Below, piece by piece: positions 1 to 41,495 of a stretch of 64,000 bases of DNA. The stretch's first letter is position 1. Every line of letters starts with the position of its first letter. Below the pieces are notes generated by a model. The model was not told the DNA's origin. It saw nothing but the letters and a program-made list of their open reading frames with translations, and searched no databases. The stretch comes from Lunularia cruciata (Eukaryota > Streptophyta > Marchantiopsida > Lunulariales > Lunulariaceae): NCBI GenBank assembly GCA_948567375.1, contig OX419759.1:3449303-3513302 (forward strand). The letters run 5' to 3'. Both the position numbers and the translations under genes were made by a program.

Positions 1-165
1 ACAGCTAGTTCATCCTTTATATGGTAAAGATTGCAGACAGACAACTAACAATGGGGCTCAATAGCACTTGGCCTCCTGATCTTTGGCCATCATAGGGTGT
101 ACCATATACTTGGGGTAGATGGCTATTTGGAGTTAGAAGGACCTAACCGCCAACTTGGGGGCAAT
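1..165 (+). mobile_element. 3' internal end and polypurine tract of a Ty3/gypsy element (fragment)
   Basis: This stretch matches, on the opposite strand, the sequence just inside the 3' LTR of the large gypsy element at 25.47-34.87 kb (25,575-25,740). Shared landmarks are the 'ctagttcat', 'tttatatggta' and 'cctcctgatctttg' blocks and the 'acctaaccgcca' run. It ends in a G-rich tract (CTTGGGGGCAAT) directly before the LTR, which fits the polypurine primer for plus-strand synthesis. It is therefore the 3' tail of a second copy of the same family, on the plus strand. The rest of that copy lies left of the window edge. No coding part is visible here. Confidence 0.8.
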
Positions 166-722
166 TGTGGCACTTTAGTGTCTATGTATGACTTATGTGT
201 GAGTTATGTGTCTATAACACATGATGTTGACAACAATGTATGTTGTGTAGCAATGTCTATACGTATGACAACTATCACACCATTTGTAGTGTCACATCTA
301 GATTCCTTGTACATTGGAGTTGCAATGATAATGGTTAGATGTATTTTAGCAATTACCCATAGATTACTTTCCGATGGTCAGATTTGTATTTGGAGTACTA
401 ACTTCATGGTGTAGCCCACTATCAATTTTCACTATTTGCACCATTGGGTGTGCCGTCAATGGGACCCTTAGGGTTTTAGACCTAGCTCAAGTCCAGGGGT
501 ATACTTTCAAAGTGCAGCTCCAAAGAACTCACTTTTCTGATGTTGAGCCTTTGAGTTCTTGGCTATGGTGGACAAAGGCCGGTGAGTGTCACTTGGATTC
601 TCTTAGCTAGAGTGGTTGTGGCTTGAATGTAATCAATGCTTAGTTGTTGGCAGTTTATGGAGTGATAGATCAAGTTTTGATCTGAGTTGAGTTGATTTGA
701 GTGGTGTAAACAAACTGATTAT
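166..722 (+). mobile_element. LTR of the DNMT/PHD-type Ty3/gypsy family
   Basis: The LTR starts TGTGGCACTTTAG and ends near CTGATTA, about 557 bp long. Its first 105 bp match the 3' LTR fragment at 25,470-25,574, and its remaining 456 bp match the 5' LTR fragment at 34,414-34,868 (both on the minus strand). It is thus the only near-complete LTR of this family in the window. A TATA-like 'TCTATAACA' lies about 45 bp in. Divergence from the other two fragments is clearly visible by eye, so the family is not very young. It is followed immediately by another LTR start. Confidence 0.8.
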
Positions 723-812
723 TGTGGCACTTTAGAGTCTAGATATGACTTATGTTTGAGTTATGTATCTATAGTGTATGATGTTGATAGCGATGTATAC
801 ACACACAACAAC
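723..812 (+). mobile_element. second, truncated LTR in head-to-tail arrangement
   Basis: TGTGGCACTTTAGAGTC recurs at 723, directly after the end of the preceding LTR, and continues with the U3-type sequence ('gacttatg', 'gagttatgt', 'gtgtatgatgttga'). Homology stops near 812, where the LINE copy begins, so this LTR keeps only about 90 bp. No internal retroelement sequence separates the two LTRs. Such a junction can come from unequal recombination between elements, from integration of a two-LTR circle, or from a neighbouring copy of the family. Confidence 0.7.
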
Positions 813-23760: not shown

Positions 23761-25469
23761 TGGATAGGAGGTCACATGTAGACCTATCATCAATAGTTTC
23801 AGCCTACTAGTTTCCCCAAACACCAGAACCTTATAGCCTTATATACAAGGTTATTTCTATTGGGTAGGAGAATAATGAGCAACCTAACCTATCATTAAAA
23901 TACACACTCCTAATATGTTGGTCATCACTTAAATCCATCACTACCAAGGAGAAATACACATAACACCTAGAAGCAAGAAATCTAAGAAAAATACCCTCAC
24001 ACCAATCCAAACCAAATGGGCATACAATCAACCATGCAAAGCATAGAGACAATCCAAACACAAGAAACTAACACAACTCTCCAAGATTTTGATAAGAATG
24101 TACTTTGAAGAGCATTTTCTCTATACAAGGCTATACTCTATATGAACACCAATAGTTGCTTCCAAGAGTTGAATTTCTATGCCTTTTGGGGAAAATCTCT
24201 ACAAGACTCAAATAGGGATAATTTTTTTCTTATAACTCTAATCTAGAGTTTTAGGACTCAATAGAAATCTTATGAGATAATCTTTCCAACCATATAAAGC
24301 AAGCCTTAATTTGACAATTATAGCTCTATTGCAAAGGTCTCAAACTTTGCCTCATGTTTTGTAATCCAAACCCTAATTTCAAAACCCTAAGTAAGGCTCA
24401 AGTCCTTATCTTTGCACAAATTTTGGCCTACAAATTCATGTAAACAATAGAAAATACTCTTAGAAGCTGCAATCCTTTCACTCATGTCTTCAAATTGAAG
24501 ATTTGATATTCAATTATAGTTGAAGATAGAATTTTCCATTGAGCTTATGATAATATTTTTAGCAAAGTTTGTTGCACCATATCTCACTATCTATAAACCC
24601 TAAGCCAACCAAATTTTACACAATAGTTGTTTATACTCTTATCTAAATCTCTATAAGGTGTGATAGTTGAATCCAAACCCAACCTCTAGATATAGATCAA
24701 TTCCCAAGTTGGGCTAACTTTTGAGCTCTATAGACCTACGTGTACTTAATCCAAGATCCTAAATTTTTGATTTGAGATCTCCATATGAAATTTTTACACA
24801 AAGGTGCAAAACTTAACTATCAAAAACACTAGGAGATCTTCATAGTTTGACTTGAGAAATGACACAAACCCCAAACTTGATTATAATCTCCTTCTCAACA
24901 CCTTGATTTATAGTACTCTAACTTCAATTGATCAGATCAATTGAAGTTTGATTTCAAAATAAAATTTCTTGGGCATAATATGATCATTATTCTCTCTACT
25001 CTCCAATCCAATTGAAAAATTATGAAAAGATATAATATAATTGTCAAATGTCTCCAATTGGTGCACTTGGGTATGAATTTGACCTCCTTGCTTCAATTGA
25101 GCATATCTCACTTAAAATTTATTGAAAATCCCTTGATTCTTGTTTTTAAACCATAGCTTGTCTATTTTTCTCTTCAATTGTAGTTTTCTCTCTCCAAATG
25201 ATTATCTTTAATCCCCCAAAAATGTCAAAAAGTTCTTGACTCCCCATGTTGGGATCGAAACCTTGTACTTTTATGACTTAACAACTTCTCCTTTTGACAC
25301 ATAAACCCCACAACTCCACCTTGAATGCCTTGAGCAGCATTCAATTCCTTTCCTTTTACAAAAGCATAATAATGGTTAATTCCAATCCTATCTGTAAGCA
25401 TGTATACAGAGGATAATTAGATTTAGGGTTTCCATCACAATGCCATGAATGTAGCTCCAAAATGTGCTA
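23761..25469 (-). other. non-coding, possibly an LTR-type sequence on the minus strand
   Basis: There is no gene. On the minus strand, 'GTCAAAAGGAGAAGTTGTTAAG' (split at about 25,275-25,295) resembles a polypurine tract followed by an LTR start TGTTAAG, as in Ty1/copia elements. A TATA-like TATAAATCAAGG lies about 380 bp further on (near 24,905). I could not find the matching LTR end, primer site or second LTR, so this is a weak call. The minus frame at 24,061-23,831 has no recognisable domain. Confidence 0.3.
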
Positions 25470-25574
25470 TGTCGTGCGTATATACATCGCTACACAACAT
25501 ACATTGCTGTCAACACCATACACTATAAAAGCACAACTCACACATAAGTCATACATAGACTCTAAAGTGCTACA
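25470..25574 (-). repeat. 3' LTR fragment of the 9.4-kb gypsy element
   Basis: On the minus strand the LTR starts TGTAGCACTTTAGAGTC at 25,574 and matches the first 105 bp of the LTR at 166-722. Homology ends near 25,470. Directly upstream is the G-rich tract CTAGGGGGGCGAT (25,575-25,592), the likely polypurine primer. A TATA-like 'CTTTTATAG' lies about 45 bp into the LTR. Confidence 0.8.
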
Positions 25575-25743
25575 ATCGCCCCCCTAGCTGGCGGTTAGGT
25601 CCCTCTAACTCCAGATAGCCATCTACTCTAAGTATATGGTATACCCTCTAATGGGCAAAGATCAGGAGGCCGGGTGCTATGGAGCCCCATCGTTAGTCGC
25701 CTATCTGCAATCTATACCATATAAAGAATGAACTAGCTATAGG

Positions 25744-26286
25744 TCAAGTACATCTAGGACATAACCACTGTCCCTGAGGAACCACCGTGAGGGGAGGAGT
25801 CATACATGCCATATGCCATCCTCTCGAACAGCTATCACACACTAACATAGTAGCAGCTCCACCAAAAGAGCCACATAACATACACCTCAAGCCTGCACGT
25901 ACAAGTGCTAAGCTTGGGTCCATAGTACCATCAATGTTTGGAAGGTGGCATGGCGCACAATTGCGCACATGATCCTTCCAAACAACACCATCACGTCCTT
26001 CTAACACAAGGACTCCAGATGGCAAAACCTTGCCCACTCTCAAGATAGTGCGGCCTGTAGAAACATCAAGTGTTGTCGGTGCTGTCTGCTGTAGATATAC
26101 ATAGTTGCCTAGATGAAATCGACGGATTGAGGGTCTATAACCTCCTCCTTGAATGGTAGCATAGCGTAAAGTATCTCTATGCTGAGCAATCGCCAAGTTC
26201 TCAAAGGCCATCGGCATCACTCTCCGAAAGATCTCTGCCCGCTGAGAACATGCGCTCATCCATACATCGCGGTCATCCAAGTCCAA
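25744..26286 (-). CDS. integrase C-terminal region with PHD finger
   Basis: The 180-residue frame is the end of the gypsy polyprotein. Residues 50-110 (GGYRPSIRRFHLGNYVYL ... ILRVGKVLPSGVLVLEGRDG) are the small beta-barrel-type tail that follows many Ty3/gypsy integrase cores. Residues 135-179 form a textbook C4HC3 PHD finger: C135, C138, C150, C153, H158, C161, C176, C179, with the usual aromatic residue before the histidine (GWH). PHD fingers bind histone H3 tails, and here the finger occupies the place where chromoviruses carry a chromodomain. A role in choosing integration sites is inference. The frame stops one residue after the last cysteine. Confidence 0.85.
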   Translation of the reverse strand: MDLDDRDVWMSACSQRAEIFRRVMPMAFENLAIAQHRDTLRYATIQGGGYRPSIRRFHLGNYVYLQQTAPTTLDVSTGRTILRVGKVLPSGVLVLEGRDGVVWKDHVRNCAPCHLPNIDGTMDPSLALVRAGLRCMLCGSFGGAATMLVCDSCSRGWHMACMTPPLTVVPQGQWLCPRCT

Positions 26287-26331
26287 AACTATAGTAGCAT
26301 CTCGACAAATGGCTGCAGGTAAATCTGGATC

Positions 26332-27033
26332 TCATCCATAGAGTAGAAAGTATGGAGAGAAGGATGCTAAGGAGGCTTGCCGGCTGAACCGATAGCCCAT
26401 GGCCAACCAAGGTAACTGGAGATCCCAATCTCCCAAGTGGCCTCTCTGCAAACCATACTTTCGCAATCCTCTCTTCACCGTCTGAACCACTCTCTCTGCT
26501 AAGCCATCTGCCTCAAGGTGATCTCGGGATGTAGTACAATGATCAATCAAAGCCTTGTCACACAAGACCTAAAACTCTCCCAAGAACTCTGTACCCTGAT
26601 CAGTCAAAACCTCAGTTGGTGCACCAAAATGACTAAGAACTCGATCTAGGAACGAGTAAGCTGTCCCTTCACTAGACTTGTCAGGAAGTGCCACCAACTC
26701 AATCCACTTGGAGAAGTGCTCCACCATCACCAAAACATACCGATGATGTCTAACAATCAGCGGTAAAGGTCCGGCGAAGTCCAAACTCCAACGGTAACCC
26801 AATCCCATGATAGGTAGTGGGTGTAACTATGGCGTAGGAGCATTGAATGATGCTCTAACTCGGTCACAAACCACACATCTGGCAACAAACTGCTGTACCT
26901 CGGTCTGCATACCGCGCCACCAATAATGACTCTGGAGTAAGCTATATGTACGCTTTACTCCAAAATGTCCTAGCTCCTCATGAGCATGACGGACTAACTG
27001 TGGTCTCTGTGATGGAAGTGGTACTACTCGCAC
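26332..27033 (-). CDS. integrase zinc-binding and catalytic core regions
   Basis: Frames at 27,033-26,827, 26,808-26,569 and 26,565-26,332 read in order. First comes the HHCC zinc-binding domain ('HAHEELGHFGVKRTYSLL', then 'CVVCDR'). Next is the start of the core ('WSLDFAGPLPL', with 'VLTDQGTEFLGEF' further on). Last is 'GLAERVVQTVK', holding the glutamate helix, with 'LPWLAMGYRFSRQASLASFS'. This is the typical arrangement of a Ty3/gypsy integrase that joins the cDNA ends to host DNA. Confidence 0.85.
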
Positions 27034-27045
27034 TTTACCATCCTC

Positions 27046-27771
27046 TCATACATGCAAAAGGTGTCTACCCTCCAATTTGAACCGTCTGGCTCGCTGAAGA
27101 ACACGGTCTCTCTCCTGGGCCCCAACTGTGCCACCCACAACACCAGTGCAAAGATAGTCCATCACTAAGACATCATCATGAATGTCTCGCTGAACTGTAC
27201 CAATATCTTCACTCTTTGGATCTGTGACCTCAATAACTCCTCCTGTATGCGCTGAGAGAGATACCACCAAAGTCTCTGCAAATATACACACAAAGGCCGA
27301 TGCATGCCAACCTGGCACCATCTCCTCATCTGTCTCACCATGCCAACGTGCTCCAATCTGATCCTGCTGGCTGGAACATGGGTTTCTACTCAACCCATCT
27401 GCATCACGGTTCACCACTCCAGGTCTGTGAACAACCGTGAAATCATACTCTTGTAAAATCAGAGCCCATCGTGCAAGCTTCCCTAAAAGCTTGTCAGACT
27501 CCATCAACCACTTCAGCGGCTGATGATCAGTGATGAGAGTGAAGGGGTTACCAAATAGGTAACATTGGAAATGTGCTACTGCCCAAACTGCTGCCAAGCA
27601 CTCTCCCTCATATGAACTATACTTCACCTCCGCTGAATTGTTGGAGCGACTAGCATAGGCCACCACAAACTCCTTCTCCTCATCATCATGTTGGGTGAGC
27701 ACCGCTCCAAGCCCCAACATACTCCAATCAGTGTGAACCTGAAATGGTCGTCTCCTGATCGGTCTCCTCAA
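27046..27771 (-). CDS. RNase H region of the gypsy polyprotein
   Basis: This 241-residue frame begins with the Ty3-type RNase H: 'FQVHTDWSMLGLGAVLTQ' (first acidic residue), 'YEGECLAAVWAVAHFQ' (glutamate) and 'LITDHQPLKWLM' (aspartate). 'WALILQEYDFTVVHRPG' and 'NRDADGLSR' follow. The remainder is a linker towards the integrase zinc-binding domain. The domain removes the RNA template during reverse transcription. Confidence 0.88.
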   Translation of the reverse strand: MRRPIRRRPFQVHTDWSMLGLGAVLTQHDDEEKEFVVAYASRSNNSAEVKYSSYEGECLAAVWAVAHFQCYLFGNPFTLITDHQPLKWLMESDKLLGKLARWALILQEYDFTVVHRPGVVNRDADGLSRNPCSSQQDQIGARWHGETDEEMVPGWHASAFVCIFAETLVVSLSAHTGGVIEVTDPKSEDIGTVQRDIHDDVLVMDYLCTGVVGGTVGAQERDRVLQRARRFKLEGRHLLHV

Positions 27772-28750
27772 AAATAGGAGCAGATGTCAACCTCTCCTTG
27801 AGCTCTACAAAAGCTCTCTCCTGCTCATCTCCCCAACACCACTCCTGTGTAAGCTTGGTCAACTTTGTCAAGGCCTTGGCAATGGCACTAAATCCTCTAA
27901 CATAGCGGCGATAGAAGTTTGCCAACCCAAGGAATGCTCGCACTCTGCTCACATCCGTAGGCCGAGGAATACGTGCAATAGCCTCCACCTTGGTCTGCTG
28001 GACACCAAGTCCTCCGGGGTAGATAGTGTGACCCAAATACTCAACTTGCTCGTGGAAGAACCTACACTTCCCAGGATGTAATTTGAGTCCATGAGATCTC
28101 AACCTCTCAAACACCTCCAACAACTATCTCTCATGCTCCTCCACAGTAGTGCTATAGACCAAAATGTCATCAATATAACACCAAGCAAAATCCAATCCAG
28201 CTAGGATCCTATCCATGACCGTCTGGAACTCAGCAAGAGCATTCTTCAACCCAAATGGTAAGAACCTCCAATGATATAACACATCCTTGCCGTGAGGATC
28301 AATAGCCCAAAATGCTCTCTTGGACTTATCCTCCTCCCTGATCGGCAACTGATGATATCCCGCTCGAAGATCCAAAGTACTGAAGACCTTTGCATGCCCA
28401 ATTGCATCAAAAATCTCCTCCGGTGTAGGCATGGCATACCGATCAGCCCTGGTCTGTCGGTTGATAGGACGGTAATCTCCACACATCCGCCTATCTATAT
28501 AGTTGCCATGCATATCCTTCTTGGCTGCCATCACTGTCGCTGATGCATACTCTCTATGTGAAATCTCCACCAAACCAGCCTCAAAAAGGTCACTACTCCG
28601 GCTCTGAATCAATGTCCTCTCCATCTCACTATATCGATAAGGATGTCGGAAAACTGGTGTGTCACTAGTAAGCTCAATCCGTATACCAGGTCCCTTCAGA
28701 GCACCCAAATCCTTCATATTGAAGGCAAAACAACTCGTGTGACTCCTCAA
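27728..28750 (-). CDS. reverse transcriptase region of the gypsy polyprotein
   Basis: Two frames (28,750-28,124 and 28,123-27,728) cover fingers, palm and thumb. Landmarks are 'DYRPINRQTRADRYAMP', 'FSTLDLRAGYHQLPI', 'FLPFGLKNALAEFQ' and the catalytic 'CYIDDILVYS'. 'FLGHTIYPGGL' and 'FLGLANFYRRYVRGFS' follow. These are hallmarks of Ty3/gypsy RT. The frame is preceded by a linker from the methyltransferase region. Confidence 0.92.
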
Positions 28751-29179
28751 GAACCTCCAAACCCTCCGTCTTTCCTCTCCAGTAAGCTTGGGTCCAAGAT
28801 CTGGCTCCCAAGTATCCTCTATAACTGTAGTAGGAGTGGAAGACGTACTGACTGGCTGCTACATTAGGCCCTTGGGAGCAATAGTGTCATGCTCCCGACC
28901 ACTAGAGGTCCTAACCTCTGTGTGAAAAACTCCCTCCACTCTGGCTGCAAGCTCCACACGTCCTCTGGCTGCATCCCATGTGGACCAAGGGTGTAATCCA
29001 AGTAGCCCACGCTCACCTGGATGGACTCCAAGTAGACTACTCTCCCTAGTAGCTACTGGATGTGTCCCAAGAATACCATGTCCACTCGGTCCATCGCCCC
29101 CAGCATGTGCCTGAATCGTCTCGATAGGCACAGGGCTCACAAGTGTCCGAGTGGTGATGCCTATCAAGCACATCCTACG

Positions 29180-30142
29180 CTGCTCTGCCAAACCAAGGCT
29201 CACAATCCAGGTCAAATAGTTCAGGTCCATAGCCTGACCTAACACCTGACGCTTGGATGCCTCTGACACTGCTGGAACAGCGGTAATACCGGTGCGAAAA
29301 CCCATCGCCCGCTCTCTCTCATCAGCATTGGGCTCCACCAACTACTGTAACTGTGAGTCCCAAACAAGTCCAGGTCCTCCCTCTCAAAAAGCATGAGAGC
29401 TTGGGAAACTCATGAGTGTGGGAAATGCAGCTCTAGGCTGTCCAATTAGGTTCACCACTGCCATAGGTGACCTATCAGCCACTACCACTGTCTGAGACTG
29501 ACGTCCAGCATCCAAGATATCATCAACAAGAATGTGGTCTAGTCGCTGAATCCCATCATAACTACGCTGTAGAACCTCTCAGGGTAAAAGGTTCGTCCAC
29601 CAAAGACGAAGACAATGAGCCCATGATCCCACTCTGGCTGCATCTAACAATACAGCAGGTCCCATCCATGAATGGACGTGATGTGTACTCGCCACCACTC
29701 TAGTGCGAGAATCACCCATCAATGGAATGTTCTCCAAAAAGTAAGCTAGAGAAACAGACTGATGAACCTGGAGATGTCGTAGTATCCGTAACATCTCCCA
29801 AAACACACCAGAACGAGGATCCTGAAGACCTAAACCGCGGCCCGCACGTGTATGTCCCTGACATGGCCATCCAGAAATCACCAAGTGAACAGGCCCATGT
29901 CTCTCTAGGTCATGCGCCCCCAGTAAGGAAATGTCTCCTGGTAAGGCCTTCTGGTAACCTCTGACTGCTGACATCGGTAATAACTCCGGATACCGATAGG
30001 CCAAGTGTGCCACATGATGTAGAGAGACTCGCCTAGCAATCTCATCTCTCTCTACATACAAGTACCTCTGTACTCGGATACCCGCCTGTAACACCGCAGC
30101 TAGTCCGGTGCTGATCCCACCAAACAACTCCAATAGACATAT
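29180..30142 (-). CDS. DNMT3/DRM-like cytosine-5 DNA methyltransferase domain in the retroelement
   Basis: The domain begins near residue 597 of the 783-residue frame (31,930-29,579). Motif I is LLELFGGISTGLAAVL (AdoMet binding), followed by motif II-type YLYVERD. Motif IV is VISGWPCQG, with the catalytic Cys of Pro-Cys-Gln at about 29,860. Motif VI is FLENIPLMG at about 29,735, and a motif VIII-like segment 'AHCLRLWWTNL' closes the frame. Motif IX/X-like 'ERERAMGFRTGIT' and 'RQVLGQAMDLNYLTWI' appear in the next frame (29,341-28,859). The pattern, including the FGGISTG start and the late LGxAxDxN block, is closer to DNMT3/DRM than to DNMT1 or DNMT2. Host members methylate cytosine in DNA. Activity of this copy is not claimed. 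Confidence 0.9.
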
Positions 30143-31930
30143 CCCCTCTACTGGATACTGCCAAGCAATGAGTGTGGTATCCAGAGGTGTCAAAGCAATC
30201 GCCTCTGGAGGCTCATCCTCACACTCATCCCCTGATGGTACAAAGGCTCCACTCCAAGCCTGCTGCACCAACTGATCCGCATGCTGCTGCAATGCCTCCT
30301 CTGAACTCCACAATGGAACATCCAAGGTGGATGGAACAATCCCACTCGTACTCCATAGCCGAGTGATCTCCTCTGGTATTGGAGTATCCTCTGCATGGAC
30401 GTTCCCCTCCAACAAGTCACCAGGCCAAGTAACTGCACCGCTGAAAGCTAAAACTGATGCTGCCATGGTCCCGGACTGTAGTGAGCCAAGACTGCCACTA
30501 CTAAAGCGTACTAGTAGGCGACATACCTGTCCCTCACCAAACTGCCAACCAGGTCTATAAGAGGATGTCTCCTCCCAATAGTCAATGCTGAAACCCATAG
30601 AGTATAACACTGCTCCCCCAACTAGCACATCATATGACTCAGCTATCGTCGCAATAGCCTGAGCTCTCACCACCGAGCTATCAGTCGGATGACCAGGCTG
30701 AACCTGGACAACAAGGTCTCCACATCTGATGTACTGTGTCGAACCACCACCAAGAGATGTCTGGATCTGAAATGGACACCTCTCCACATCGGTCTTCCGT
30801 AACTCCAGACCGACAACTGCAGCCTTCCCCAACATAAGGGGCTGTGCACCAGAGTCTAACAAGACTCTCTGTGGTGTATAGACCTTCCCTGAAGGTCCCA
30901 CTAAACAAAAGATCCCCCTCTGGTTATCCAATAAGACAACACCAGGTGTAAACCGCGCTCTCTCAAAGGCCGGTCTAGCTGGCAACTCCTCCAGTCTAGC
31001 CGCTGCTGCCTGCCATAAACCACTGGTGGCTGAACGGATCCCATGCTCCTCAACCAAGTCAGCTCCACTACCAACCACCTCTGCTCTAGTAGTAGGAACT
31101 GCACCATCCCTACTCTCACACAACATGGCAGCCAACCGGAACACTGGGGCTGGGTCAACTCCCAATGTAAACATGTCACTGGCTGAAAATAAAGGATGCC
31201 GCATAATCAGCTGAGCCGCCCCCAACATCATGCTAGACTCAGTCTGTGTAGTAGCAGGTGGTTGACTAGCAGGTAGTCCATCATGTACTCCATCACCACC
31301 TACCACACCTGCACTGGGACGTCTAGGAACCATGGATGTTGTCTGCAATGCCTCAGATAGCGTGAAAGACTGGGGAAGTCTGACCTGTCTCCCAACCTCT
31401 CCTCTCTGTGGGTCCAACTCCACTGATGCTCCACTAGGCTCTGGAGCACGTACTGCACTCCTAGTCACTGCTGCAGATGCATCCACCTGTGCTGCTCCGC
31501 ACATGAAGTCCAAAGCATCTCTATCACCAGCATATGAGGTGGAAGCCTCAGCACCCGAATCTGATCTCCTCTGAGCAATAGCCATACTAGCCAATCTCTG
31601 CTCCAACTGCTCAATCCGAGTAGCCATAGCTGTGTCAGAAGTAAGGGCAGGTACTGCACCCCTACTAGGTGTAGATCCTCTACCACCACCTCTACCACCT
31701 CGTCCTCCATGAATTGGAGCTCCTCTACTACCTGCCATAGCAGCCCTACCACTCCGTAACTCCGGGTATAGGTCAAAACACCGGTCACTAGTGTGACCAA
31801 ATCTGTGGCAATGCTCACACTGCCTCTGTGCTGGCTGTGATGCACAAGAGGTATCAGGTCCGCTGCCCTGAGTACACTCTCTCCTATGGTGAGGTCCACC
31901 ACAAGTCCAACAAGCAACACCACCACTCAC
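29579..31930 (-). CDS. long frame: zinc knuckles, protease and start of the methyltransferase
   Basis: The 783-residue frame is the longest in the window. Residues 7-19 (CWTCGGPHHRREC) and 38-51 (C-x2-C-x4-H-x4-C) are two zinc knuckles of the nucleocapsid type. A Gly/Arg-rich stretch lies at about 66-90. The aspartic protease signature is at about 351-375, with the active-site motif LLDSGA near 30,860. The methyltransferase starts near residue 597. The region between protease and methyltransferase (about 460-590) has no recognisable domain. Having nucleocapsid, protease and methyltransferase in one frame shows that the methyltransferase is part of the polyprotein and not a later insertion. 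Confidence 0.9.
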   Translation of the reverse strand: MSGGVACWTCGGPHHRRECTQGSGPDTSCASQPAQRQCEHCHRFGHTSDRCFDLYPELRSGRAAMAGSRGAPIHGGRGGRGGGRGSTPSRGAVPALTSDTAMATRIEQLEQRLASMAIAQRRSDSGAEASTSYAGDRDALDFMCGAAQVDASAAVTRSAVRAPEPSGASVELDPQRGEVGRQVRLPQSFTLSEALQTTSMVPRRPSAGVVGGDGVHDGLPASQPPATTQTESSMMLGAAQLIMRHPLFSASDMFTLGVDPAPVFRLAAMLCESRDGAVPTTRAEVVGSGADLVEEHGIRSATSGLWQAAAARLEELPARPAFERARFTPGVVLLDNQRGIFCLVGPSGKVYTPQRVLLDSGAQPLMLGKAAVVGLELRKTDVERCPFQIQTSLGGGSTQYIRCGDLVVQVQPGHPTDSSVVRAQAIATIAESYDVLVGGAVLYSMGFSIDYWEETSSYRPGWQFGEGQVCRLLVRFSSGSLGSLQSGTMAASVLAFSGAVTWPGDLLEGNVHAEDTPIPEEITRLWSTSGIVPSTLDVPLWSSEEALQQHADQLVQQAWSGAFVPSGDECEDEPPEAIALTPLDTTLIAWQYPVEGICLLELFGGISTGLAAVLQAGIRVQRYLYVERDEIARRVSLHHVAHLAYRYPELLPMSAVRGYQKALPGDISLLGAHDLERHGPVHLVISGWPCQGHTRAGRGLGLQDPRSGVFWEMLRILRHLQVHQSVSLAYFLENIPLMGDSRTRVVASTHHVHSWMGPAVLLDAARVGSWAHCLRLWWTNLLP

Positions 31931-32185
31931 TGGCTGCTGCTGACCCGAAAATGAGGGTAAGGGTCTAACTCCACTAGGCCCTCCACTTGCTCCATAGGAT
32001 CTGGGCTGTCCACCCTGTCCTCAAAAACCAACTGGGCGTGGTGCACTCTGCTGCACTCTAGAAGAAGTCACAACCGTGGATGAGGTCTCTCTACCAAATC
32101 CAGCTGTCACCACTCTCTCCTCCACCATGTTGAGCTCAATACGCTCAGCCAAACCAAAGACTACTGCCAAAGTGGGCGAAGTAGC

Positions 32186-33091
32186 CTACAACAACGTAGC
32201 ATCACGAACTCTACGTCGCAACTCCTTGTCCGGTATCCCATACCAAAACTGGACTGCCTGGGCCTCAGTAACTCCCTGAGTGAAACTGATCAGCCGCCTC
32301 ATGCAAGTGTATGCCTCGCGTAGGCTCTCTCCAGCCTTCCGCTGGAACTCATGCAAGCTCCTCAGCTTGTCAGTCCGCACTCCCTGGTAGTTCTACCTCA
32401 AACATAGGAAGAACTCCACCATGGGGTTAAACCCCTGTACCACACCACCTCCTACAGCGGTACCTCCACTCGTAGTAGCACTATCTCCAGCTAGTGCACC
32501 TCCACTAGCTCCACCAACACTACTCGAGCTAGAACTCGTAGGTACAGCCGACCTACTCTTGGCCACCGAACCTGAAGTGATGGAGACATAGTGTGGAGAC
32601 CAATACTGTCTCCATAACTCAATCTCCTCCAAATGAGCTCTCCTGAACTCATGGTAGTCATCCATCGGTGGACCCTCCAAGTGCTGAAACAACCCCTTCC
32701 ATGCCATGAAGGGTGTGAACAAAGTCGGGTTCCGCATCTGCTGCAGATCACACCAACTATCAAACTCCTGGATGAAGTCATCCAACTCAATGGTACCCAC
32801 TGTACTAGAGTAACGCCTAGGGCCTTTGGAGGCCCCATAAATCTCGTCCATGTCCCACAACAACGGTGCGGACACACCAAGTGCACTCTCAACTGAATCA
32901 GCTCCTGTGTCGAACTCCAACTCAGAGTCAATCTCCTCCCTCACTGGGACCTGAGATACAGGCTGATATCGAGCACCACTCCGAGTAAACCTACTACGTA
33001 CTGTAGGGCTAACTCCTCTGGAATCTCCAAAGAACTCCGTCGTGACCACGTAATTGCAACAGCAAACCCGAACCACCAACTGCAACCGCAA
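32186..33091 (-). CDS. gag region of the gypsy element
   Basis: Frames 33,091-32,393 and 32,380-32,186 read a Ty3-type gag. 'FIQEFDSWCDLQQM ... MAWKGLFQHLEGP' corresponds to the start of the capsid-like domain. 'LHEFQRKAGESLREAYTCM' and 'AVQFWYGIPDKELRRRV' correspond to the later helices. An acidic N-terminal part precedes it. A Ser/Gly/Ala-rich low-complexity linker ('SSSSSVGGASGGALAGDS') interrupts the domain. Confidence 0.75.
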
Positions 33092-34413
33092 GTCGCAACC
33101 GCAAGTACCCCACCAAGTGCCAACACCAACTAAACACCACCCACTAATGTAACTCTACCAAGATAACTACACTAGGGGAAGGGCAACCTGTAACCTGCCA
33201 TTATAACATGCACTCTCACGGTCTGCAGGTCATCACTTCCTGCCTCACCGGAGAGAAACAAAGGTAGTCTGACTGGTCATCACTCCAGCCTCACCACCGA
33301 GAGCACACCAGAGCACCAACGCTCAAAAGTCAGGGCACCTCACACAAACGTGGTGCACAAACAAGAAGCAGAGAATGGAGGGGATCCAATCACAAGAAAT
33401 CTAAACGAAAACCCTCCATCTCATAACATAACACGGGACTGACTCTGCCACCATTTGGCATTTGACATAAGAGTAGTTTGTATCTAAGTCCTAAGCTACC
33501 AGGATCACCAAGAATGGGATCAAACTGCCTCTCCTAGCCAAAGCTACATGTGTATAGATAACAGTGGCACAGTCACTATGACAACAAGTGAGGGTGGACC
33601 AGTTGGCTAGGGCACCAGTCTAGGAACAAGAGATCTAGGGGTCAAACCCTGTTGCGCACAATCTAGCAAGAAAGGCAGATTTTGCCAACCAATGACCAAG
33701 ATCTACACTAAACTAGCTAGCCTCACGCCAGCAAGCTGGCTTGCTGGCCCTTCTAGGCCTTCGTAGCTTCTCATCCCTATGCCTTGAAGCCTCGAAATAT
33801 TGAAATTCAGCCAAATGAGGCCTTTCTTGTTGCCACTTTGAACCTCCTCCAAAATTGGCGAAACTTCTCCAAATCTGCGAAGAACCTCCTCCAAAATTGG
33901 CAAAACTTCTCCAAATCTGTGAAACTCCTCCAAACTAGCAAAACTTCTCCAAATCTGGCCAAACAGCGAAACTCCTCCAATTTTGGCCCAAAATCTGACG
34001 TAAAATCTGACGTAAACCCTAAAGATGGATGTCCGCCAAATGCCCCCGCTAACTTTCCACTCAAGCCAAATTGACAAAAAGGGTTTTTCCAAATCACAAT
34101 TTCATGAGAAGAGCTTTCCAACTCCACCTTCAATTTCACTTTCTGAGCCCAACTCGCAGCAAATTGGTCCTGCCTTCACCTCCTGAGCTCAAAATCACAA
34201 CACTGCTCAAAAATTGCTCCTTCTTTGCTCAAAATTTGGCCAGTGCTTCCGCACATCGTCCGCCTAACTGCCAAATTTGCATCAACTACACGAGCTTCTG
34301 CACACTAGGGAAACACAGAACCTGAATCGAGCTACCACGATCCACCGAGCTTGGAGATACCACCAACACTCAACGTTCCTGCACCCGATTTCCCCCTGAC
34401 TTCACTTCTCTGA
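33092..34413 (-). other. 5' leader of the gypsy element with short tandem repeats
   Basis: This is about 1.3 kb between the 5' LTR and gag, without a convincing gene. At 33,841-33,990 a short unit of about 42 bp ('cctcctccaaaattggc', then 'aaacttctccaaatctg') is repeated three to four times with decay; the opposing frames over it are by-products. The primer-binding region should lie at 34,395-34,413 (minus: TCAGAGAAGTGAAGTC). This only weakly resembles the initiator tRNA-Met complement, so the primer is uncertain. Confidence 0.6.
33593..33660 (+). ncRNA. tRNA-like (SINE-head-like) sequence inside the gypsy leader
   Basis: On the plus strand, opposite to the element, 'CCAGTTGGCTAGGGCACC' looks like a D-arm or A-box region. 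About 35 bp further, 'GGGGTCAAACCCT' looks like a T-arm or B-box, with a short GGG/CCC stem around TCAAA. Spacing fits a tRNA-derived RNA polymerase III promoter. The acceptor stem cannot be paired convincingly, so it is at best a tRNA-derived SINE head or pseudogene, or chance. Confidence 0.3.
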
Positions 34414-34868
34414 TGTAATCAGATTGCTTAACATTCTCAACTCAACTCAACTCAGATCAGTACTTGATCTGTCACTCTATAAACTACCAACAACTGGGCA
34501 CTGATTATAGTCAAGCCACATCCACTCAAGCATAGAGAATCCAGGTGACGCTTGCTGGCCTCTGTCCACCATAGCCAGGAACTCGAAGGCTCAACATCAG
34601 AGAAGTGAGCTCTCTGGAGCTCACTTCAAAACTATACCCCCTGGACTCGAGCTAGCCCTGAAACCCTAACGGTCCCGCTGATGGCACACTCGACGGTGCA
34701 AACGGTGCAAAGTGACGGTGGGCCCCACCGTGAAGTCAGTACACCAAACACAAAATCTAACCGTCGGAAAGTAGTCCCTGAGAAACTGCTAGAATAACTC
34801 TAACTACCATCACTGGAACTCCAGTGTCCGAGCATCTAGATGCGGAACTACAAATGGCGTGACAGCTA
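34414..34868 (-). repeat. 5' LTR fragment of the 9.4-kb gypsy element
   Basis: On the minus strand this matches the last 456 bp of the LTR at 166-722. Shared words include 'ccatttgtag', 'gttagggttt', 'gatgttgagcctt/cgagttc', 'ggctatggtggaca' and 'gatctgagttgagttga'. It ends CTGATTACA at 34,414. Homology on its upstream side stops at about 34,868, so the first 100 bp of the LTR are missing here, while those 100 bp are precisely what remains at the 3' end. Confidence 0.82.
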
Positions 34869-35907
34869 CCATCCAAGCCCAGAAGTGATCATTGTGCAAA
34901 ATCTGAAGCATAAGGAGAATTTTTTTGAAAGTCATACATCACAAGTGCAAAACATCTCTTGTTCAAACTCACTCTCTAATGCTCCAACTCCCACACTTTA
35001 CTACAACTCTCAATCTCCAACAACCTCTTCTCATTAAAGATTCCTAAGACTCAAAAAGCCTCCTTTGTCTATCAAGTCTCCACCATCTTTATGCATTAGA
35101 GCACTCAAAATAGACAAGATCATAATCCATGTGGCCAATCACTTAAATGTCCATAGATTGCTTACATAATAATGGCTCAACCATGGGATCTATTATGCAA
35201 TCTACTCCAACATTATGGCGATAAATAAAAATAAACTACTTTTCACTAGCTATGAAAACTATAACATGACATCACAGATTTCAAATCCTGTTATTGTGCT
35301 ATGAGCTTCTCTGCCAATTTGTGGATCTTTTGTGCAAAGATGGCTTCCAATTCTTATATTAATGCAATTATGTCCTTGTCACTTTTTTCTAGTGCATGCA
35401 CTTGCTCATGATACCTCTCTTCTACAACTATGAGTTGTTCTTTAAGTTGTGTGAACTCTTGCAAATCTATCATGCACTCATACCAAGTCAAGCATTGCTC
35501 TTGCTTGTGACATTAACTTACTTCAATGGATGTTTGTTCCTTGAGCCTCATGATTTTTCCCTAAGCTATTGTTAATTTTTTTTACACCTCTTCTCCTAAT
35601 AGGCACTCTAGATAGTGTATAGTATATACTATATTAACCTTGGGTTGTTATTGATATTAGGTTGTATTTTTTGGTAGAAAGGGAGTAAATCCTCCATCAA
35701 CTTCAAAATGAGCATCAGTGCATGGACAACCCACATAAACATTGGTAAACCTTTTAGGGGCATCTGATTTTTTTTCTTATGGTGGTCGTGTACGGTTTCC
35801 CTTTTGGGTGACATTTCCATCACTTTCTCTTTGTTAGGTAGTATTATCTACCTCAAGATCCATCGGGGTGCTCCTCACTTCTAGCAACTCTTTGAAGCAT
35901 GACCCTA
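34869..35907 (-). pseudogene. minus-strand coiled-coil-like relic left of the chromodomain gypsy element
   Basis: The minus strand reads 'EERYHEQVHALEKSDKD', 'FAQKIHKLAEKLIAQ' and other Glu/Lys/His-rich text around 35,300-35,520, and the frame 35,823-35,629 ('MSPKRETVHDHHKKKNQ'). It looks like a broken protein with a coiled coil. The chromodomain gypsy element is inserted into this unit, which seems to continue at 41.5-43 kb. The part 34,869-35,270 has no visible feature. Confidence 0.4.
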
Positions 35908-36319
35908 TGTAAAAGACCAAGACCGAGGAGAGAAATAGGAGAATGGAAGCTCACATTGGGACACTTGAATGAATGAAAACTCCAAATGCCTAGCATGAGC
36001 TTCGGCATTGGTATTATAGGTCACATACAAGGCCCTTGAGAAGCTTCTTAAGAAGTTTCTCAAGAAGCTTCCTCGAGCCGCTTTCTTAGAGTGCAAGCCA
36101 AGTTAACCACAAAGCTTCCTTCTAGAAGCCGCCTTGGCATGCAAGCTAAGCTAGTTAGAAGCTTCCTTCTAGAAGTAACTTACTTGAGGTGCAAGCTAAG
36201 CTAGCCGAGAAGCTTCCCAAGAAGCCTCCTAGATACTTCTAGAATAGTCTAGGCTAATTTGCCTTATTTGCTACTTTTTTAGCCCTACTAACTTTGTTGC
36301 TAAACTCCATATTGTTACA
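35908..36319 (-). repeat. 3' LTR of the chromodomain gypsy element
   Basis: This 412-bp LTR has TG...CA ends. The repeated 'AGAAGCTTCTT/CTAGAAG' words give it internal short palindromes. It is aligned end to end with 41,086-41,495. A TATA-like box is less obvious than in the older copy at 20.7 kb, which reads 'GCTATAAATGC' at the corresponding place. Confidence 0.9.
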
Positions 36320-36379
36320 TATTCCTCCACTGCTAGTTGGTGACGTCTTCATTGCCAATGAAGCTTGGAACTCATGGGT

Positions 36380-36560
36380 GGCCATCTGTGCATTCTGGAA
36401 ATGAGAAAGAGGTTCCTATGTAGCATCATGAAGGAGATACCCTTTCCAAAGGACCTTGTACTCCATATGTTGTCAACAGCCTTGTTGAATATGGCGACAT
36501 GCAAAGATACGATCAACTTTGTACTCCTCATGATCATTGATAGGGACAGAAGGAGGGGGA
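36380..36560 (-). CDS. chromodomain at the integrase C-terminus
   Basis: The minus strand reads 'HEEYKVDRIFACRHI', 'MEYKVLWKGYLLHDAT' and 'EPLSHFQNAQ' in one frame. This is the pattern of a chromodomain: E-Y-x-V-x-x-I, then Y-x-V-x-W-K-G-Y, then the W/E-P and N-A end. Chromodomains guide chromovirus integration to heterochromatin. This sets the element apart from the 9.4-kb one, which has a PHD finger in this position. Confidence 0.85.
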
Positions 36561-36853
36561 GGTTGGACTCAAGAGGAAAAGAAAGAAGGGTTAGGAACAA
36601 AGTGTTTCAACTTGGAAACATGAAAGACATGATGGATACACATATGACAAGGCAAGGCAAGTCGATAAGCAACGAGACAATTTGGGTGACATCAAAGGGT
36701 CCTATCCAATTAGGGGCAAGTTTATGAACTTGGGTATCAAGGGGGAGAAGGAGGTTACTAGAGGATAGCATGACTTTATCACCAACTTCAAAGGTGAGAT
36801 CATGATGATGGTGATCCGCATATTTTTTTGATGATTCGAAGCAGAGATTTGGC

Positions 36854-37498
36854 TTATTGGAGAGATTGGGATATAGTGCTCAAGAATGTTGAAGTATGAG
36901 AAACTTGAGATTGAAGGGAAGCAAGAAGAGAATCTAGAACAAGAGGATCTTGGCCAAAATTGAGAAAGAAAGGAGAAAATCCGGTGCTTGCTTGTTTAGA
37001 ATTGTTGTAGGAAAATTTTGCAACTGCAAGACATTCATCCCAATTGGTATAGTAGATATTGACAAAGGCACATAGCATATCTTCCAATGTATGATTTGCA
37101 TGTTTGGTTTGTCCATCAGTTTGAGGATGATAGGCCATGGACAAAGCAAGCTTGGTGTCGAGTATCTAGAAGAGTACTTGCCAAAACTTCTTGGTAAATT
37201 GAGGATCACAGTCGGAGATGAATACACGTGGCATCCTATGATGCTTGAAGACATTGTCAAAGTAGATTTTTGCTAAGGTTGGAGCATCCACGGTATCACA
37301 AGTTGGTGCCAAGTGGATTTTCTTATTAAGCTTATCCACAAACACCACGATTGTTGTGTGTCCTTGCTTTGTCTTGGGCAAGGATGTGATGAGATCCAAG
37401 CTCACATGCTCCCATGGAGTGGATAGAGTGGCGAGTGGTTGAAGGAGTCCACTCGACTTTTGGTTGCTGGCCTTGTTGCATTGGCAGCTCTTACACAA
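36854..37498 (-). CDS. integrase region of the chromodomain gypsy element
   Basis: The frame 37,498-37,166 begins in the zinc-binding end ('CKSCQCNKASNQ'), then the core 'WEHVSLDLITSLPKT', 'VVFVDKLNKKIHLAPT' and 'VFISDCDPQFTKKFWQ'. The frame 37,144-36,854 continues with 'AYHPQTDGQTKHANHTLEDM', holding the glutamate helix, and 'FSYNNSKQASTGFSPFFL'. It is clearly plant Ty3/gypsy integrase. Confidence 0.9.
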
Positions 37499-38004
37499 CC
37501 GGATGAATTCTTAAACATCTTGCATCATGTTGGGCCACCACCATTGGCATTGGAGGGTACTCAAGGTCTTGTCTACACCCATATGACCAGCTATGGGTAA
37601 ATCATGGGCTTCTTGAAGGCGTACAAGTCAAAGATCACCTTTGGTTGGAATATAGATCAGGTTCTCATGGAATAGAAGACCTTCCTTGATGGAGAAGGTG
37701 TTGTACTCCTTGTCACATGTTGTAAGGAGACCATGTACCATTTGGAAGAAGGGATCTTGTTGTAAAGTTGATTGAAACTTGTTTTGGACCTTGGAGTCAA
37801 TTGACACCATCATAATTGCCATTGTGATGAGAGGGAGAGATTTCAAATCAGGTCATCGTGATAAAGCATCAAGGATGATGTGGAACCAACTTGGTTTGTA
37901 CTCAAGTTTAATGTCAAACAATTGGAGTTATTCCTCCCATTGATGGTGTCAATTCTTCATGTGTTCCAAGTGTAAGGTCTACAACAATGGTTTGTGATCA
38001 GTTT

Positions 38005-38916
38005 TCATGATTGCTTGTTTCCCCAAGAGGTAATGCTTCCATACCTTAGTGGCATATACCATTGCAAGTTGTTCTCAATCTTGAGGAGAGTAGTTTCTAT
38101 TAGCCATATTGAGTCGGTGAGACACAAAGGCAATAGGATGTAGTCCATCTGAGAACTCTTGTTGCAACACGGCTCCAATTGCAAAGTTAGAAGTATCAAA
38201 ATCAACCACACAAGGTAGTTGAGGATCATACGGTTGAAGAATGGGTCTTGAAGACACCATATGTTTCAATTTTTGGAATGCTTCTTTGTGCTTGGTGGTC
38301 CATTGGAAGCTCAAGTTATTCCCCAAGAGGTCAGTCAATGGTGTTGCCACATGAGCATAATAATGGATGAACTGTTGGTAAAAACTGGCAAATCCATTAA
38401 ATGTATGTACTTCTATAACATCCTTTGGAATAGGCCAATCAGTAATAGTCTTGATTTTCTCCTCTTCCATCTTGATCTCCTCTGATGAGATCTTGTGACC
38501 CAAGAAGGTAACTTCCTTTTGCCAAAAGGCACACTTTAACTTCTTGCAATAAATTTCCATTGTCATAGTCGTCTTTGGACTTCTTGCACGTGATTCATGT
38601 ATTCTGCCTCTGTCTTCCTATAGATTAAGACATCATCCAAGAACACCACCATGTACCAATCCAATAGTCCATCCAACACCCAATGCATCTGATCCATGAA
38701 GATTGTTGGAGCATTAGTGAGCCCAAAAGGTAGAACTCTCCACTCAAAATGCCCATACCTTGTGCAAAAGGCAGTCTTTTGCACATCCTCCCTATCAATG
38801 GGAATTTGCCAATAGCTGCTGCAAAGATCCAGCTTGGAAAAGTATCGTGCTCCACTCAATTGATCAAGCAATTCATCAATCCGAGGCAAGAGATATGCAT
38901 TCTTCATTGTTTGCAT
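38005..38916 (-). CDS. reverse transcriptase and RNase H regions of the chromodomain gypsy element
   Basis: The frame 38,916-38,563 has 'FSKLDLCSSYWQIPI', 'EWRVLPFGLTNAPTIFM' and the catalytic 'MVVFLDDVLIY'. The frame 38,566-38,075 follows with 'CAFWQKEVTFLGHKIS', 'FNGFASFYQQFIHYYAH' and the RNase H start 'CVVDFDTSNFAIGAVLQQ'. All are standard Ty3/gypsy blocks. The next coding text towards 37,628 is the RNase H tail and linker ('LITMAIMMVSID'). Confidence 0.9.
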
Positions 38917-39092
38917 ATTGAGCCCACAATAATCAATACAAAAACAAAGTCCTCCATCCTTCTCTGGAACAAATAGTACCAGTGCTCCCCAAGGAGAGGT
39001 ACTATGTCATATGAAGTCCTTCTCCAACAACTCCATAAGTGTTGTTTGCAACTCCTCCAACTCCTTTGGTGAGAGCTTATAGATTGGTCTAC

Positions 39093-41067
39093 TCACTCAA
39101 GTACTCCTTGACAATAACTCAATCTTGAGGGCATACCATGATCAGAAGGTAATCCCTTCAACAGATCATCCGGAAATACATCCGCAAACTCTTGAAATAA
39201 CTGATCAACCCTTGCTTGCTGAGGCTCTCGGCTCTCCTCAGATTGTCCTTGTGCAATCAGCTTGATCCACACTGCAAAAATAGACCTATCTTCCTCCAAA
39301 GCTTGCTCTATGGTTGCTTCACTAACAAACTTCCCATCTAAGGACTCACCTCTCTTCAAAGCTTGCTCCACGATTGCCTTCCTGGCAAACTTCCCATCTT
39401 GGAGCTCCTTTTCCTTCAAAGAATGCTCCATGGCTACCTTCTTAACCAACTTCCCATCCTAGGATTGACTATTCTTAGGTGTCTTACTCAAAGGTGCTAG
39501 ATAACCTAATCAGAATTTCCTACCTTGATGATGTACTTGAATTTGTTGTTGGGTCCAATCAAATTGATCCTTATGATGTTCAAGCCAAGGTAGTCCTAGA
39601 ATGACATCATAGTGTAGAGGTGCCACTACAAACCTCATACACTCCAAATACTCCTTCCCAATCTTAAAAGTAACAAGATGTTAGGTACGGAATGCATAAC
39701 CCTTTCTACCATCCGCTATCATCAATCTACTTCTAATCATTGGCTTGATAGGAATACCCAATTCCTTTGCTACTTGCATAGACATGCAATTCTCTAAACT
39801 TCTAGAATCAACCAAAATCCTACAACTTTGATAAGATATTGTACCTTGTAAATGAAGCAAACTTGCATAGGTCTAGCCTTCAATCCCATTGGAACTAATC
39901 AAGCTCCCAATAGGCGGCTCTAAATCTCCTATTGGGATTCCTTGTTTCTCTAATCATTCTATTCTACAAACTCTATCTGGGCAACTTGTCAAGGTTGCAC
40001 ATTCTTGAGTGGACATTCAGCAATGCAATGTCTAACTTGGCAACAATAAAAACAACCTCCATTTTGTCGCAATCTTTCTCTATCCATTGTACCAAGTGGT
40101 TTCCATTGGATAGCATCAATCTCCATTGGTACTGGTTCCTCCACCAATGCGTAGTGAATTGGTAGGCTTTGTGTAGATCAAGGTCAAAACCAAGTTGTCA
40201 CAACCAAGGAATCAAAGTGCTCAGCTAATTGCATGGCTTTTTCTATGTTTTGTGGTTCTTGCATGGTCACCTCCAATTTGGTTTGTCCCTTCAATCCCCA
40301 CACAAATCGATCTAGAACTTCACTTTCTTGTATATTTGGAATTTGCATGATGATGTTCTAAAATTGTGTGATATAGCTCCTTATAAAGCCAATATGCTTC
40401 AACTCTGCCAGTTTATCTTGTGCAGCTCATGTGGCATTTATAGTTTGAAATTGACTAAGTATTCCATCCTGCCCATGTCAAAATTAGTATAACAATCTAT
40501 CATTTAGCTTGCTCCACTTGGAATCGCCACCAAATTTTTGCCACACCATCTAATTGGCTAGAAGCCAAGAGAATTTGTTTCCATTCATCTTGAAGGTTGG
40601 TGGCTCCAAAATCAGTCAAACACAAAATTGTCTACTATTCTAAAAAGATCCCTGCCTTCAAACACCTTGGGTTTTGGAAATCGGATGCGATCTCCTCCAT
40701 CTCAAACTAGTGCTCTCTCTATGTTCTTGTTGTTGTTGTTCTAGTTCATCTAACAATTGAGTAAGGTGCTCGATTTGTTGCTATATCACAAGGATAACAT
40801 CCGGTATTGCTGATAGTTACTACTCTATCCCACTACTCTCGGTTTATCTAATTGATTAACATATAGATGCAACACGTCCATCGGTCTACATAAGTTACAA
40901 CCGGAAGTATTAAGGGTTCCTCAAACACGGTGATCATATGTAGACAATCCTGCCCAAAACACGAGGTGATGAATTGGGTGAAATGATGCTTGGGTAATAT
41001 TTGGACATGAAAATTCCAATGGTTTGGCAGAAGTGGATTTGGTGGTCCATAAATTGCATCCATCCCA
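39093..41067 (-). CDS. gag, zinc knuckle and protease regions of the chromodomain gypsy element
   Basis: A CCHC knuckle (C-F-Y-C, then H and C, ending 'AECPLKN') lies at 40,013-40,054. A protease-like stretch ('CRILVDSRSLENCMSMQVAK') lies near 39,740-39,850. The linker to RT includes 'ATIEQALEEDRSIFAVWIK' in the frame 39,449-39,093. Gag text with 'GLKGQTKLEVTMQEPQN' is readable near 40,240-40,300. The leader frame at 41,063-40,848 ('MDAIYGPPNPLLPNHWNF') lies just inside the primer site. Confidence 0.7.
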
Positions 41068-41085
41068 TTCCTGCTCTGATACTAA

Positions 41086-41495
41086 TGTAAAAGACCAAGA
41101 CCAAGGAGAAAAATAGGAGAATAGAAGCTCACATTAGGACACTTGAATGAGGAAAAACTCCAAATGCCTAGCATGAGCCTCGGCTTTGGTATTTATAGGT
41201 TGTATACAAGGCCCTTGAGAAGCTTCTCAAGAAGCTTCCTCAAGCCGCGTTCTTAGAGTGCAAGCCAAGTTAACACAAATCAAGAAGCTTCCTTCTAGAA
41301 TCCGCCTACTTGGCATGCAAGCTAAGCTAGTTGAAAGCTTCTTTCTAGAAGCTACTTATTTGAGGTGCAAGCTAAGATAGCCACAAAGCTTCCCAAGAAG
41401 CTTCCTAGATACTTCTAGAATATTCTAGGCTAATTTGTCTTATTTGCTACTTCGTTAGCCCTACTAAATTTGTTGCTAAACTCCATATTGTTACA
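41086..41495 (-). repeat. 5' LTR of the chromodomain gypsy element
   Basis: This 410-bp LTR has TG...CA ends and is homologous throughout to the 3' LTR. It is followed inward by the tRNA-Met primer site at 41,068-41,085. Roughly one position in ten differs from the partner LTR by eye, which places the insertion some millions of years back; the exact age needs a rate for this lineage. Confidence 0.9.

Follow-up and report, generated by a model that had tools for sequence, protein, structure and literature searches.

A multi-copy Ty3/gypsy family with a predicted DNMT3-type methyltransferase and a probable PHD reader in the liverwort Lunularia cruciata

Described systems and the element in the window

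The closest known system to the element described here is the Gypsy-Dnmt3 element of Klebsormidium nitens (KnitGypsy-Dnmt3; de Mendoza et al. 2018, PMC5890265). That element has an unrearranged DNMT3-type enzyme within a Gypsy Pol and, according to a figure legend, a DIRS-like repeat structure, and our family has both. The main text of that paper mentions neither a PHD finger nor Marchantia, and where it treats the capture of the enzyme it takes it as private to the K. nitens lineage (PMC5890265); here, the lineage spans bryophytes and algae. To the description of KnitGypsy-Dnmt3 our family adds a PHD finger, 4-bp target duplications and a TAG that ends ORF1.

Three other systems share parts of this plan. 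SymbioDIRS-Dnmt3 of Symbiodinium, as presented in PMC5890265, has a DNMT3 enzyme, repeats in the order A-coding-B-A-B and two domain orders, all like our family. Unlike our family, it is a DIRS element with a tyrosine recombinase, an unrelated retroelement (PMC5890265). A passage in PMC12344493 places DNMT3 in 'LTR Copia and DIRS' elements. Ginger1 DNA transposons (PMC2836005) resemble our family in their Gypsy-type integrase, TGTNR ends and 4-bp duplications, and one listed family has a PHD finger. They differ in having terminal inverted repeats and the life of a DNA transposon, and the sections of their description drawn on here (PMC2836005) name neither a reverse transcriptase nor a methyltransferase. 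Chromoviruses, which are Ty3/gypsy elements, also carry a chromatin-reader module at the integrase C-terminus; theirs is a chromodomain rather than a PHD finger, and the abstracts on them name no methyltransferase. Chromoviruses have ordinary LTRs.

We analysed a stretch of 64,000 nucleotides of L. cruciata DNA (the window). All methyltransferase motifs and the coding sequences of the element are on its minus strand (Table 1). A preliminary description had reported cytosine methyltransferase motifs in the same frame as CCHC knuckles and a protease. We found this to be correct: LLELFGGISTG, YVERD, VISGWPCQG, FLENIP and LLDSGA are all in ORF 29579-31930 (-), and the later blocks ERERAMGF and RQVLGQAMDLN are in the same frame in ORF 28859-29341, upstream of the reverse transcriptase ORF. 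The order protease, reverse transcriptase, RNase H, DDE integrase, together with a gypsy-type reverse transcriptase and RNase H, is that of Ty3/gypsy elements. Asp_protease_2 has a Pfam match in the relatives P0035 and P0098 and none in the window ORF; rve and H2C2 have Pfam matches in relatives of the window element.

Table 1. Features of the element and of a second copy in the window.
Feature	Position	Strand	Evidence or remark
Whole window copy, A1-internal-B1, ends TGTC...GACA, lacking the A2-B2 of full copies	25470..34864	-	
4-bp target duplication TAGC, element's 5' side	34865..34868	.	partner 25466-25469
4-bp target duplication TAGC, element's 3' side	25466..25469	.	
Repeat A1, 449 bp	34416..34864	-	matches 272-721 of second copy and A copies at genome loci
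Gag N-terminal part to its first stop	32393..32856	-	ORF; by eye like start of Marchantia P0007
First CCHC knuckle	31874..31912	-	read in ORF 29579-31930
Second CCHC knuckle	31778..31819	-	read in ORF 29579-31930
Aspartic protease region with LLDSGA (approximate limits)	30530..30930	-	motif
Predicted DNMT3-type cytosine-5 methyltransferase domain	29174..30145	-	Cys of PCQ at 29861-29863
Conserved TAG closing ORF1	28859..28861	-	then CAGCCA (fits CARYYA)
Reverse transcriptase, one in-frame stop	27728..28750	-	RVT_1 4.2e-17 and 1.9e-5 (Pfam)
RNase H, other frame after frameshift	27046..27771	-	RT_RNaseH 3.4e-36 (Pfam)
Integrase with in-frame stops	25885..27045	-	frame; same stretch in P0031, P0050
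PHD finger, integrase C-terminus	25750..25884	-	PF00628 4.2e-11; PDB PHD chains
Polypurine-like tract directly before B1	25577..25585	-	read from letters
Repeat B1, 107 bp	25470..25576	-	
Second, older copy, 3' end, 80-86% identical	1..798	+	
Repeats of second copy	within 1..798	+	B1 164-270, A2 272-720, B2 721-798 (cut short)

The window copy is dead. Its methyltransferase domain has three in-frame stops (TGA 29581-29579, TGA 29386-29384 and TAG 29344-29342), and at two conserved arginines of the block after FLENIP it has W and C; of the 20 other host copies in the alignment, 19 keep each arginine. Its gag, reverse transcriptase and integrase are also broken by in-frame stops, with a frameshift between reverse transcriptase and RNase H. 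Being broken, this copy cannot write methylation or mark its cDNA, the activities that the preliminary description had proposed for the retroelement. Judged by its sequence, the locus is best explained as one inactivated member of a Ty3/gypsy family with many copies.

The window holds other repeats. Another element, at 35907-41502, has gypsy-like ORFs flanked by repeats (35907-36326 and 41085-41502) that are ~5.2 kb apart. A multi-copy repeat family, 78% alike, occurs at 813-2078, 48168-49309 and 61299-61694, and one of these adjoins the second copy of our element. There is a 100-bp exact tandem duplication at 1437-1641. By eye, ORFs 4106-4546 and 14483-15028 are like the GIY-YIG and reverse transcriptase pieces of Penelope-like elements.

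Copies, ends and reading frames in the host genome

We searched the host genome assembly (565.8 Mb in 74 contigs, at least eight of which are 60-85 Mb) in two ways. The search with PF00145 gave 123 scored matches out of 2,161 candidates, at least five of which are ordinary host genes. The search with the integrase-PHD region gave 150 scored matches out of 11,403 candidates, all 94-99% identical. We sampled 20 copies along these 150 matches, blind to the enzyme. The methyltransferase was at the expected distance in 18 of the 20 (17 with PCQ, and 9 stop-free over the part seen) and was absent from the expected place in two. Most of these copies, chosen by integrase-PHD similarity alone, carry the domain at the same place, which upholds the earlier claim that it is built into a Ty3/gypsy element. 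Neither outcome that the preliminary description had named as refuting, no significant profile hit or a domain private to one copy, was observed. In the sampled sequences, the methyltransferase is a fixed part of this multi-copy family. For 30 loci selected by PF00145 score, a single full alignment was obtained for 20, two of them stop-free within the domain. Long open frames recur among the host genome copies.

Many copies are young and carry a footprint of CG and CHG methylation, as indicated by the small divergence of the repeats and by the transition bias at CG and CHG sites. In 18 copies, the A and B repeat pairs diverge by 0.4-3.1%, and 144 of the 153 differences between A1 and A2 are transitions. 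Differences per site between A1 and A2 are 0.107 at CG, 0.064 at CHG and 0.006 at CHH. Host enzymes suffice to explain this footprint, since genes like DNMT3, DRM and CMT are all present in the genome. Five loci (L079, L080, L081, L082 and L093), sorted by motif, are exons of such genes.

The evidence for selection on the enzyme within the host genome is suggestive only. In the 21 aligned copies, which were chosen by enzyme score and give non-independent pairs, pooled pN/pS comes to 0.45 in the methyltransferase against 0.57 in early ORF2, and the median dN/dS drops from 0.64 to 0.36 with distance. Conservation of the enzyme between the liverwort, moss and algal relatives is stronger evidence of selection than pN/pS.

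Full copies do not have the two identical terminal LTRs of an LTR-retrotransposon. They have the order A1-internal-B1-A2-B2, their ends read TGTC...GACA, and they sit between 4-bp target duplications. In the older copy whose 3' end lies at the window edge, A, a copy of the element's 5' end, comes after B1, and a further B after that. Of 30 genome loci, 27 finish with B1-A2-B2 at the 3' end; two, L047 and the window copy, stop at B1, and L055 is rearranged. At the 20 loci for which 5' ends were fetched, 19 begin with A, in one case over just 29 bases, and L047 showed no A1. Exact 4-bp duplications with TGTC...GACA-type ends were found at 19 of 20 loci, with a chance expectation of ~0.1 in 20. 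The spacer between B1 and A2 is GC in 16 of 18 copies; one more has GC with a missed A start, and one has AC. The junction GACAGCTGTC (GACA-GC-TGTC) is palindromic. We sought an LTR pair flanking the window copy and found none, an absence that the split repeats of the second copy and the 30 loci explain. A stretch near 33455, TGGTGGCAGAG, was considered as a primer site and dropped, since the sequence that this placement would assign to the LTR does not follow A2. We looked for a canonical tRNA primer site after A1 and found none.

ORF1 comprises gag, protease and methyltransferase. ORF2, in the same frame, comprises reverse transcriptase, RNase H, integrase and PHD finger. An in-frame TAG separates them in all 21 aligned copies, the window's counted. 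Its 3' context matches CARYYA in 23 of 25 loci, the listing of which required the stop. This hexanucleotide is the one at which tobacco mosaic virus shows readthrough, as given in part of PMC4132726. In many type A relatives from metagenomes (P0097, P0098, P0103, P0106 and P0108; type A is defined below) the TAG is absent and a single long frame runs through, so Gag-level expression of the enzyme would not be general.

The enzyme, the PHD finger and their lineage

The resemblance to a methyltransferase is beyond chance, because the domain scores above the curated cut-off of PF00145 (E 9.2e-6; 25.7 bits against a cut-off of 22) and because a protein search found 34 relatives, with E from 3e-95 to 9e-18. 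The motifs of a cytosine-5 methyltransferase are unrearranged and lie between protease and reverse transcriptase. Among solved cytosine-5 enzymes, the retroelement enzyme is nearest to DNMT3 in sequence and fold. The best profile and structure matches are the DNA methyltransferases DNMT3A/B, with DNMT2 far below. DRM2 and CMT chains are absent among the 50 structure matches listed, which is no evidence against them. Structure 4onj is a tobacco DRM and 4dkj is M.MpeI.

The enzyme had been called DNMT3/DRM-like. The profile and structure comparison bear out the first half of that name. The second half does not hold: the motif order is as in DNMT3, in contrast to the rearranged order of the host DRM-like genes L080 and L093. 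A tree of part of the families named in the preliminary description, with only two DNMT3 rows and few DRM rows, puts the retroelement enzymes in a clade of their own (94/95), which joins DNMT3 plus DRM to the exclusion of 28 prokaryotic-type rows (100/99). The outgroup came from a scan of virus contigs, in which 71 pattern stretches gave 28 loci with weak phage-type matches. By profile and predicted structure, and less clearly by the tree, the enzyme is predicted to be of the DNMT3 type.

Three protein searches (34, 74 and 87 hits) gave 152 distinct proteins. Their hosts include Marchantia, Calypogeia, Sphagnum, Closterium, K. nitens, Cymbomonas and many metagenomes. Domain mapping found the methyltransferase in 136 of the 152, reverse transcriptase in 54, the integrase C-terminal part in 49 and the PHD finger in 38. 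PCQ or ECQ is present in 82 of 87 long domains of the relatives, and the EN pattern in 68 of 87. Among the 54 proteins with both methyltransferase and reverse transcriptase, the enzyme is upstream of the reverse transcriptase in 17 (type A, the order of the window, including Marchantia) and downstream of RNase H in 37 (type B). Two proteins have further domains: in P0150 from Cymbomonas, precomputed Pfam domains show the methyltransferase of the lineage joined to ankyrin repeats, and in the type B protein P0109, residues 1276-1325, between methyltransferase and integrase, match a G-patch domain under the Pfam cut-off.

Trees of the enzyme and of the reverse transcriptase (44 rows including the window; 11 of the 54 proteins, with short domains, left out) each split A (13 rows) from B (31 rows), with SH-aLRT of 100 and 96 by a quick, unrooted method with no bootstrap. 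The inner branching of the two trees is partly discordant, with low support at many nodes. Since both trees show the same two clades, enzyme and reverse transcriptase have been together since before the A/B split. On these sequences, the enzyme would have moved within pol once or have been captured twice from one source. One K. nitens protein, the partial P0137 (KFL_009030040), falls into clade A together with the window. We assume it to be one of the K. nitens elements of PMC5890265; our family, like KnitGypsy-Dnmt3, combines split repeats with a Gypsy Pol that contains a DNMT3-type enzyme.

The PHD finger occurs in 38 of the 49 proteins that have matches to methyltransferase and integrase C-terminus, and in 37 of the 42 that have more than 60 residues beyond the integrase match. 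No PHD match was found in the other five of these 42; one of them, P0096, has a Cys/His-rich tail by eye. The finger is present in type A (the window, Marchantia P0050, P0098) and in type B (Cymbomonas P0148 and metagenome proteins). In the window, Pfam finds no chromodomain in ORF 25744-26286, and the PHD finger is there. The best PDB matches of the window finger are CHD4, KMT2D, PHF12, KDM5 (KDM5A/B), PHF21A, KAT6A and DPF3; its matches also include BAZ2. Many of the matched fingers are readers of the unmodified H3 tail. PHD fingers that read H3K4me3 carry a cage Trp, and in the 39 aligned fingers of the family the residue ahead of W/Y/F-H is never Trp. The finger is a probable histone-reading module, of the H3K4me0 type by likeness. 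Among the 38 PHD-bearing proteins, 25 (P0101-P0148) have a tail of more than 200 residues after the finger with conserved DPW.G and PP blocks; by eye, these tails may resemble an N4/N6-type methyltransferase. In two clade-B C-terminal tails, Pfam at E up to 10 gave no match.

The lineage in liverworts, Sphagnum, Closterium and Cymbomonas, in two clades with the enzyme at different sites in pol, goes beyond the K. nitens report. Also added here are the PHD finger after the integrase in both clades, the split repeats with exact 4-bp duplications, and the position of the enzyme at the end of the Gag-protease frame, where a conserved TAG with readthrough-type context follows. The PHD finger, the split repeats, the second copy and this stop are absent from the preliminary description. 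In the parts of the open-licence literature covered by our search, no paper treats the lineage in land plants, or its PHD finger.

What the element may do

We propose the following account, tentatively; as a whole it is somewhat more likely to be wrong than right. Low-rate readthrough of the TAG would cause the methyltransferase to be made with Gag, in excess of the reverse transcriptase. The methyltransferase would enter the particle and methylate new cDNA ahead of integration. Through its PHD finger the integrase would be anchored to chromatin that lacks H3K4 methylation. Fresh insertions would arrive already methylated in silent chromatin, with less damage to the host and less exposure as foreign DNA. 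The cDNA would circularise, and the integrase would cut the palindromic B-GC-A junction within the LTR, giving split repeats and integrase-type duplications. The window form, A-internal-B, would be a product of recombination between B1 and B2. This needs less than the lesser possibility, an integrated single-LTR circle, and is preferred for that reason. We infer every step, from readthrough through cDNA methylation and targeting to circle integration, from the anatomy of the element. Against the account stand the silent K. nitens enzyme (below), a methylation footprint that host enzymes explain, the weak signal of selection, the two of 20 sampled copies lacking the enzyme at its place, the TAG-less type A frames, the missing tRNA primer site and the five of 42 proteins with no PHD match.

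A wider version is doubtful when all its parts are taken together. It would have an old green-plant Ty3/gypsy lineage with a paired PHD reader and DNMT3-type writer, the writer made with Gag in the bryophyte branch and moved once in pol, and the element integrating as a circle, its copies pre-methylated in H3K4-unmethylated chromatin.

DNA methylation by such enzymes has been assayed in yeast, in results reported in PMC5890265. DNMT3 enzymes of Symbiodinium retroelements methylate CG there, which favours the proposed account. The enzyme of the K. nitens gypsy element, the sole one like ours to be assayed, gave no methylation, which the authors call inconclusive. Such a result would fit a methyltransferase that is kept for another task, RNA methylation or nucleic acid binding in the particle. 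For LINE-type enzymes, PMC5890265 considers RNA as a possible substrate, and a Gag-linked position suits binding equally. Against another task, the top profile and structure matches are DNMT3A/B with DNMT2 far below, and most relatives retain PCQ and the ENV-like motif (82/87 and 68/87). We consider another task unlikely, with perhaps one chance in several of being right.

It is about equally unlikely that the enzyme acts in trans on the host genome, either altering host methylation to the gain of the element or slowing the element so that the host survives. Both versions are discussed for Symbiodinium in PMC5890265, and the many copies in the L. cruciata genome would fit them. However, K. nitens, which carries such elements, has an ordinary plant-like methylome (as stated in PMC5890265), and the host copies here bear the footprint at CG and CHG that silencing would be expected to leave.

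The ends could have another origin than the proposed cut of a circle inside the LTR, namely DIRS-like replication, inherited or copied from DIRS elements. A1-internal-B1-A2-B2 is the order of PAT-type DIRS elements, as described in part of PMC4157794, and split direct repeats of this kind are present in 27 of 30 loci; the K. nitens repeats are called DIRS-like (in a legend of PMC5890265). DIRS and PAT elements, however, combine such repeats with a tyrosine recombinase and no DDE integrase. Pfam found no tyrosine recombinase in the window ORFs or in the relatives scanned, relatives have the rve integrase and H2C2, exact 4-bp duplications flank 19 of 20 copies, and the polypurine tract directly before B1 fits LTR logic. 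We regard this origin as slightly less probable again than the trans effect. Finally, the reading that a host gene inserted into a single copy, which the decay of the window copy might suggest, can in practice be dismissed: the domain is at the same place in 18 of 20 copies, and 17 of the 54 relatives that have methyltransferase and reverse transcriptase, Marchantia included, carry it before the latter.

An element that carries the silencing enzyme of its host inverts the usual picture of an arms race, and one algal gypsy case was known before. The lineage described here extends over prasinophyte, charophyte and bryophyte hosts, appears to have kept a reader and a writer together, and has many young copies in one genome. 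Why an element retains a methyltransferase becomes a testable question, possibly in Marchantia, which has relatives of the element. The split repeats and integrase-type duplications need a new account of how a gypsy element forms its ends.
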